Shown piece after piece: positions 56,996 through 59,859 of a DNA stretch of 64,000 nucleotides. Position 1 is the stretch's first letter; every line of letters starts with the position of its first letter. The position numbers and the translations under genes were made by a program. The notes beneath the pieces are model-generated. The model did not search any database. It was not told where the DNA came from and was given only the letters and a program-made list of their open reading frames with translations. The DNA comes from Chloroflexi bacterium GWB2_54_36 (GTDB lineage: Bacteria > Chloroflexota > Anaerolineae > Anaerolineales > Anaerolineaceae), in NCBI GenBank assembly GCA_001796355.1, contig MGMG01000077.1, forward strand, positions 43,844 to 107,843, given 5' to 3'.

Positions 56996-57409
56996 ATGCT
57001 GCGAAAGAACATTGCACAGCCAACTACCGTGATAGTCTTGTTATTCGTTCAAATTATTCCCCTTTTGCTCTTTCCCCCGAATATTTTTTCGTCAACCAAT
57101 CAGCAATGGTGGCTCCCGGTATTTTTGACCGCACTTGCGATTTATGCCGCCGTAAAAATCGTGGTACAGCGCACGAGTGAACTTTGGCCATGGTATCTGG
57201 TATCTTTTTCACAGGGGTTCAACATTATTAGCCGTCTAATGATGATCATGCCGCATGCCACCAACAATGTCAACGGAGCCCAGGTTGCAGATGTTGCTTA
57301 CCTGGTCACCAACATCATTGCGGTTGTCATTTCGGCGGGCTATATCGTATTCGCTGAATTGCCAGATGTACGTTTGAGTCTATTAACGCAAAAAGAGACT
57401 GCCGCGTAA
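56996..57409 (+). CDS. Hypothetical membrane protein (about 4 TM)
   Basis: Hydrophobic segments TVIVLLFVQIIPLLLF, WWLPVFLTALAIYAAVKI, YLVTNIIAVVISAGYIVF; followed by terminator. Confidence 0.65.
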   Translation: MLRKNIAQPTTVIVLLFVQIIPLLLFPPNIFSSTNQQWWLPVFLTALAIYAAVKIVVQRTSELWPWYLVSFSQGFNIISRLMMIMPHATNNVNGAQVADVAYLVTNIIAVVISAGYIVFAELPDVRLSLLTQKETAA

Positions 57410-59646: not shown

Positions 59647-59781
59647 TTAGAAACCGATAAACCAGGCTGAACGCATGATGACCCCACCACCGGCCTCGGG
59701 AGCCCCAGATCCCAAGACAAAAAGGACAACGGTCAGTACGAAGAAGATCATGCGAGTTTTGGCAGAGGAGATTGTAATCAT
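59647..59781 (-). CDS. 44-aa hydrophobic mini-protein (not in supplied ORF track)
   Basis: Reverse strand encodes MITISSAKTRMIFFVLTVVLFVLGSGAPEAGGGVIMRSAWFIGF*; one TM/signal-like helix, 12 nt upstream of the DUF5317 gene, promoter and long leader upstream. Confidence 0.6.
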   Translation of the reverse strand: MITISSAKTRMIFFVLTVVLFVLGSGAPEAGGGVIMRSAWFIGF

Positions 59782-59839
59782 TGCAGGTTTCCCTTCCCGG
59801 AAAAGTATTTGCTATATAACAATAGTTTACTTAAGGGTA

Positions 59840-59859
59840 GGCTTCAAAGGTGGCTTCAA
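59840..59859 (-). repeat. Direct repeat TTGAAGCC x2 (12-bp period) in mini-protein leader
   Basis: GGCTTCAA at 59840-59847 and 59852-59859 on the + strand. Confidence 0.6.

Follow-up and report, generated by a model that had tools for sequence, protein, structure and literature searches.

An unannotated small peptide gene conserved behind a large AfsR-like activator gene in Anaerolineae, with a candidate role as a signal or feedback peptide

An unannotated 44-codon reading frame at the head of an operon, on the reverse strand of the window (the whole stretch of 64,000 nucleotides analysed), raises the question of whether it is a gene and, if so, what its product may do. Reading positions 59781 to 59647 again reproduced exactly the position, frame and sequence given in the original prediction, and the proposal of a small gene heading the operon was supported, since the frame is the first after the regulator gene on this strand and lies 12 nt before the DUF5317 start (Table 1). 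The purine-rich stretch described ahead of it was also recovered, and similar Shine-Dalgarno-like stretches were present upstream of 85 of 86 peptide homologues, in a permissive test with no shuffle control. Searching by tblastn with the peptide, we found homologues in all seven other genomes of the same genus that were searched (E values of 1e-9 to 1e-21) and also across the family and the order, so that the prediction, which had been made to depend on homologues with a conserved frame, survived. The dN/dS comparison suggested for these homologues gave values of about 0.02-0.23, with codon changes mostly synonymous in close relatives; for example, the codons of the window peptide and of its L034 counterpart differed by 19 synonymous and 9 non-synonymous changes (dN 0.122, dS 1.1). 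In other genomes, a peptide homologue was located just upstream of the DUF5317 gene (within a few hundred nt) in 76 of 80 named DUF5317 loci taken from species genomes; two of the other four were contig ends, and L087 and L091 truly seem to lack the peptide. No family in Pfam or NCBIfam matched the peptide at E values up to 1, and no leader, riboswitch or other Rfam model matched the locus. We conclude from sequence comparison that this tiny ORF is a real conserved gene, that dozens of Anaerolineae-type bacteria carry the same 30-50-residue peptide of membrane or secreted type after a large AfsR-like activator gene, and that the peptide family lies outside the models of public databases. All the evidence on the peptide system is comparative, and the loci are related, so that the counts given here overstate independence; start codons and alignment anchors were chosen by rule in several of the analyses.

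Table 1. Features of the peptide locus and the basis on which each was assigned
Feature	Position in window	Strand	Basis or description
GAGAP peptide gene, 44 aa	59647..59781	-	Short n-region, core RMIFFVLTVVLFVLGSGAP, Gly-rich/variable tail; homologues and purifying selection
Shine-Dalgarno-like purine-rich GGGAAGGGAA	59789..59798	-	Direct reading; ends 7 nt before the ATG
Predicted -10 element TAAACT	59824..59829	-	Direct reading; 10 nt after the repeat
Direct repeat TTGAAGCC-ACCT-TTGAAGCC, 12-bp period, predicted activator site	59840..59859	-	Only exact match in the window
Large SARP-type activator, 1084 aa	59973..63227	-	MalT-like NTPase (NOD/STAND) N-terminal, TPR repeats, SARP/BTAD DNA-binding C-terminal
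DUF5317 membrane protein, 206 aa	59014..59634	-	PF17248, E 2.3e-31
NHLP-clan-like protein (Os1348/Franean1_4349-like), 96 aa	58755..59045	-	NF038399, 27 bits (cut-off 40); PF14407, 21.5 bits; both below cut-off
HD-GYP protein, predicted c-di-GMP phosphodiesterase, 384 aa	57543..58697	-	HD_5, E 3.7e-40; HHERFDGSGYP motif read

We found that the conserved part of the peptide comprises the hydrophobic core, GAGAP and the Gly-rich stretch, with the invariant core (R/Q)...LFVLGAGAPxxxGG. In an alignment of 72 loci anchored on the proline (position 0), Ala -1 was invariant, Gly -2 and Pro 0 were each present in 71 loci, position -18 was Arg or Gln in 70 and position +4 was Gly in 63, the core following the pattern L-x-L/M-F/L-V-L-G/A-A. 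The tail after the proline was variable and Gly-rich, and had a length of 8 residues in 48 of 80 peptides. The aromatic tail emphasized originally (IMRSAWFIGF) was not conserved, being INRSLSLIGL in L034, IINSIINFPGW in Bellilinea and a GGVGG-type end in most others; on this comparison the longer, aromatic-bearing tail is a feature of the genus and not of the family, and the tail, which had been recommended as the query for homologues, is the least conserved part of the peptide. The proposed secreted-peptide architecture held in part: an N-in, signal-like hydrophobic segment is present, but the sole AxA-like cleavage motif (AGA) precedes the near-invariant proline. A proline immediately after the cleavage motif normally blocks signal peptidase I. 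Because of this residue, the peptide may stay anchored in the membrane or be processed otherwise, and its layout would be that of a signal peptide or of a short N-in/C-out anchor.

The protein encoded ahead of the peptide matched the Pfam models BTAD (1.5e-23) and TPR_12 (8.3e-20), and scored 225 bits over residues 9-531, below the model's cut-off, with the NCBIfam model MalT. Its C-terminal 255 aa matched the AfsR structure 8hvr (E 5.5e-6), AfsR being the nearest solved relative. BTAD was detected in the gene preceding the peptide in 60 of 66 loci.

The exact pattern of the direct repeat upstream of the peptide gene occurred once in the whole 2.9-Mb genome, at this gene, and copies with two mismatches were found at 16 sites elsewhere versus 2 for a reversed control pattern, a possible hint of a regulon extending beyond this operon. 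With at least 8 of 9 positions required to be identical, 60 of the 74 regions ahead of homologous peptide genes contained a direct repeat whose period was exactly 12 nt; dinucleotide shuffles gave about 1.5 such regions and other lags between 0 and 13, although the source genomes are related and these counts are not independent. In addition, of 53 homologous promoters, 36 had a TANNNT box starting exactly 10 nt past the repeat, versus 0-3 at other offsets. The half-site varied by lineage (GAAGCC, GCATCC, GATGCC, GTCTAC, ATACCGAA, CTGACC), with the period constant. An FKN recognition helix in the adjacent regulator was paired with a GCC/ATCC half-site in 40 of 41 loci, and where the BTAD helix was a different one, in five loci (L079, L081, L085, L089 and L124), the half-sites were unrelated; L110, a sixth entry among the non-FKN loci, is not a BTAD protein and was left out. 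Half-site and recognition helix co-varied when overall regulator similarity was allowed for (partial Mantel r 0.39, p 0.001), which provides strong indirect evidence that the adjacent regulator binds the 12-bp repeat. Based on the repeat, the fixed -10 box and this co-variation, the peptide gene is the predicted first target of the activator next to it, a relation like that of afsS to AfsR.

Tandem peptide genes were observed in Ornatilinea apprima (four copies), in Ca. Desulfolinea nitratireducens (five copies) and at three further loci (two copies each). Each of the five genes of Ca. Desulfolinea nitratireducens (L117, 1297-2581) had a separate 12-bp repeat and -10 box, and between tandem copies the protein remained nearly constant as synonymous sites drifted.

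The second gene of the operon is a clear member of the DUF5317 family (PF17248), of which the GAGAP peptide is not part, and the AlphaFold2 model of its product (pLDDT 92) contained several helices of transmembrane length. Residues D151 and D169 of DUF5317 were invariant, which prompted its consideration as an LspA-like aspartyl peptidase; this candidate was rejected, as Foldseek against the PDB gave no match at E<=0.001 and none to LspA. A PDB sequence search with DUF5317 also gave no match, and the family was not mentioned in the literature searched; nor did that literature contain the name of Thermotoga TM0504, a possible link to which was set aside. The following gene encoded HD-GYP in 57 of 61 loci. 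Outside the peptide system, DUF5317 was fused to EAL beside a diguanylate cyclase/phosphodiesterase gene (GGDEF/EAL) on a plasmid of Euzebya pacifica (L175, 3926-6466), with Euzebya the only genus recovered in a search of a plasmid collection, and to an MFS_3-type permease in other Chloroflexota (L200, L204 and L211), with HD-GYP just upstream in L200, the one case checked. These fusions and neighbours, occurring without the peptide, suggest that DUF5317 belongs to a c-di-GMP setting in which the peptide is not needed. A 137-aa membrane-like ORF with no family match above cut-off was also observed at 56996-57409 on the forward strand of the window.

Since the peptide is conserved beside an activator, behind an activator-type promoter and ahead of an operon for a c-di-GMP enzyme, its role is probably one of feedback or signalling. 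In the mechanism we propose, the large SARP-type activator would bind the 12-bp direct repeat, which would overlap the -35 region of the peptide promoter, and turn the operon on; the peptide would insert in the membrane N-inside through its hydrophobic core, with the AGAP junction and the Gly-rich tail, mostly of 8 residues, facing outward; the processed peptide would modulate the TPR sensor of the activator that makes it, in an autoinducer-like loop; and the co-transcribed DUF5317 and HD-GYP proteins would convert this loop into a c-di-GMP output. That the peptide serves as a signal or feedback peptide of the TPR sensor, within an activator-driven operon with c-di-GMP output, is a reading to which we give close to even chances. 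A conserved core with a variable tail would fit a precursor with a constant processing part. However, several points count against a signal: the hydrophobic core is better conserved than the tail, an unusual pattern for a peptide in which the tail alone matters, the tails show only modest diversity and are rich in Gly, a proline follows AGA at the would-be signal peptidase I site, and the operon contains no dedicated exporter or protease gene. The reality of the gene, its selection, its promoter architecture and its operon partners appear well supported, as does the peptide gene together with its cis-regulation; from these we infer the signalling role, regulator-promoter binding, topology, export, processing, sensing, the role of DUF5317 and the c-di-GMP output of the peptide system.

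The strongest competitor, which we nevertheless consider rather unlikely, is that DUF5317, and perhaps HD-GYP too, has in the peptide a stable single-span partner, which tunes a membrane c-di-GMP module and is not released. The peptide stop and the DUF5317 start were separated by no more than 20 nt, or overlapped, in 59 of 73 loci; in an order-wide sample, DUF5317 was present in 31 of 200 genomes, 30 of which had the peptide (the missing one being at a contig edge) versus 1 of the 169 others at E<1e-7, although the profile was derived from such loci and the positives are therefore partly circular. Conservation is highest in the membrane core and GAP, which favours a subunit, and among three loci that keep the regulator, peptide and HD-GYP without DUF5317, two (L153 and L157) had lost GAP. 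In the third (L207), however, the peptide survived the loss of DUF5317 with GAGAP intact, DUF5317 often occurs without the peptide in the rest of Chloroflexota, and the presence of four or five tandem copies, unexplained by a 1:1 stoichiometry, fits better with the dosage of a released or consumed peptide. The role in signalling or feedback is ranked above that of a DUF5317 subunit because the activator is the peptide's most constant partner.

The same tandem arrangement, in a short hydrophobic peptide with a membrane protein gene directly after it, might suggest a small toxin or bacteriocin to which DUF5317 confers immunity, but this seems improbable: DUF5317 occurs elsewhere without the peptide, fused to EAL or MFS and beside HD-GYP, unlike an immunity protein, the peptide core is nearly invariant across diverged species, and neither an antisense or antitoxin element nor an Rfam match was seen at the locus. 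A RiPP-like system, in which the precursor of a modified peptide would be either the GAGAP peptide or the NHLP-like protein of 96 aa, is more improbable still; although six tested loci kept the NHLP-like small protein in the interval from DUF5317 to HD-GYP, its scores fall below the curated cut-offs and domain annotation of the operon revealed no RiPP modification enzyme beside its gene. Least credible of all is the view that the frame is a leader or has arisen by chance, and that its translation matters rather than its product: the frame is short, first in the operon and below annotation cut-offs, but selection at the amino-acid level, the invariant GAP, the absence of an Rfam leader or riboswitch and its duplication as independent units argue otherwise, and the dN/dS values and tandem copies have already largely refuted it.

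As a candidate signal or feedback peptide beside its likely activator, the window peptide invites comparison with two known kinds of system. In Streptomyces, AfsR activates the adjacent afsS through two 11-bp repeats (PMC10936776). The locus resembles that pair in having a SARP, NOD/STAND NTPase and TPR activator with BTAD, whose DNA-binding domain is homologous by sequence, and two direct repeats upstream of a small adjacent gene at a fixed short spacing to the -10 element. However, the order of domains is reversed (NOD-TPR-SARP), the SARP domain of the 1084-aa protein being C-terminal instead of N-terminal, and in place of the 11- or 22-bp repeats of large SARPs, 8 bp from the -10 element, the period is 12, and a spacing of 8 nt is obtained only by taking TTTTGAAGCCTG as the unit; the site is thus SARP-like but not canonical. 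In addition, the small gene encodes a peptide of membrane type that has no established similarity to AfsS, and the operon leads to HD-GYP and not to antibiotic genes. RRNPP(A) pairs and SHP/Rgg (PMC9765709, PMC10075063, PMC3150281) likewise have a TPR regulator followed by a short hydrophobic peptide gene, probably controlled by the regulator, and the short Gly-rich C-terminus of many GAGAP peptides is a further likeness; the 44-aa product falls within the 10-100 aa of an adjacent propeptide and lies beside a BTAD regulator in nearly all loci. The candidate receptor, however, although it contains TPRs, is about 1080 aa long instead of 250-500 aa and includes NTPase and SARP domains, its HTH is of a different type, and export and sensing of the peptide are putative; its signal-like core is followed by an AGA-P junction. 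The host also differs, Chloroflexota not being mentioned in the main text of either RRNPP survey.

No described peptide communication was found for Anaerolineae, which are abundant in digesters, sludge and sediments, in the searches made. It is possible, although we hold the idea with some doubt, that Chloroflexota have peptide signalling outside the Gram-positive RRNPP systems, in which a NOD/TPR/SARP activator would sense a GAGAP peptide derived from the membrane. Such an activator would switch on its own peptide genes via the 12-bp repeats and set c-di-GMP levels by means of HD-GYP, and DUF5317 would supply a membrane part for processing, transport or reception. The peptide family, likely activator, binding site and output operon can now be named in cultured species (Bellilinea, Ornatilinea and Anaerolinea), making the putative peptide control of c-di-GMP signalling directly testable; DUF5317 gains its first functional context, and the helix/half-site pairs may represent a natural set for reading SARP specificity. 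More distant peptides, of the GAPNDWPGG and GGAAPWMHY types, were observed in other families of Chloroflexota (L154, L156, L160, L162, L205 and L206), where they lie close to DUF5317 or follow BTAD regulators.
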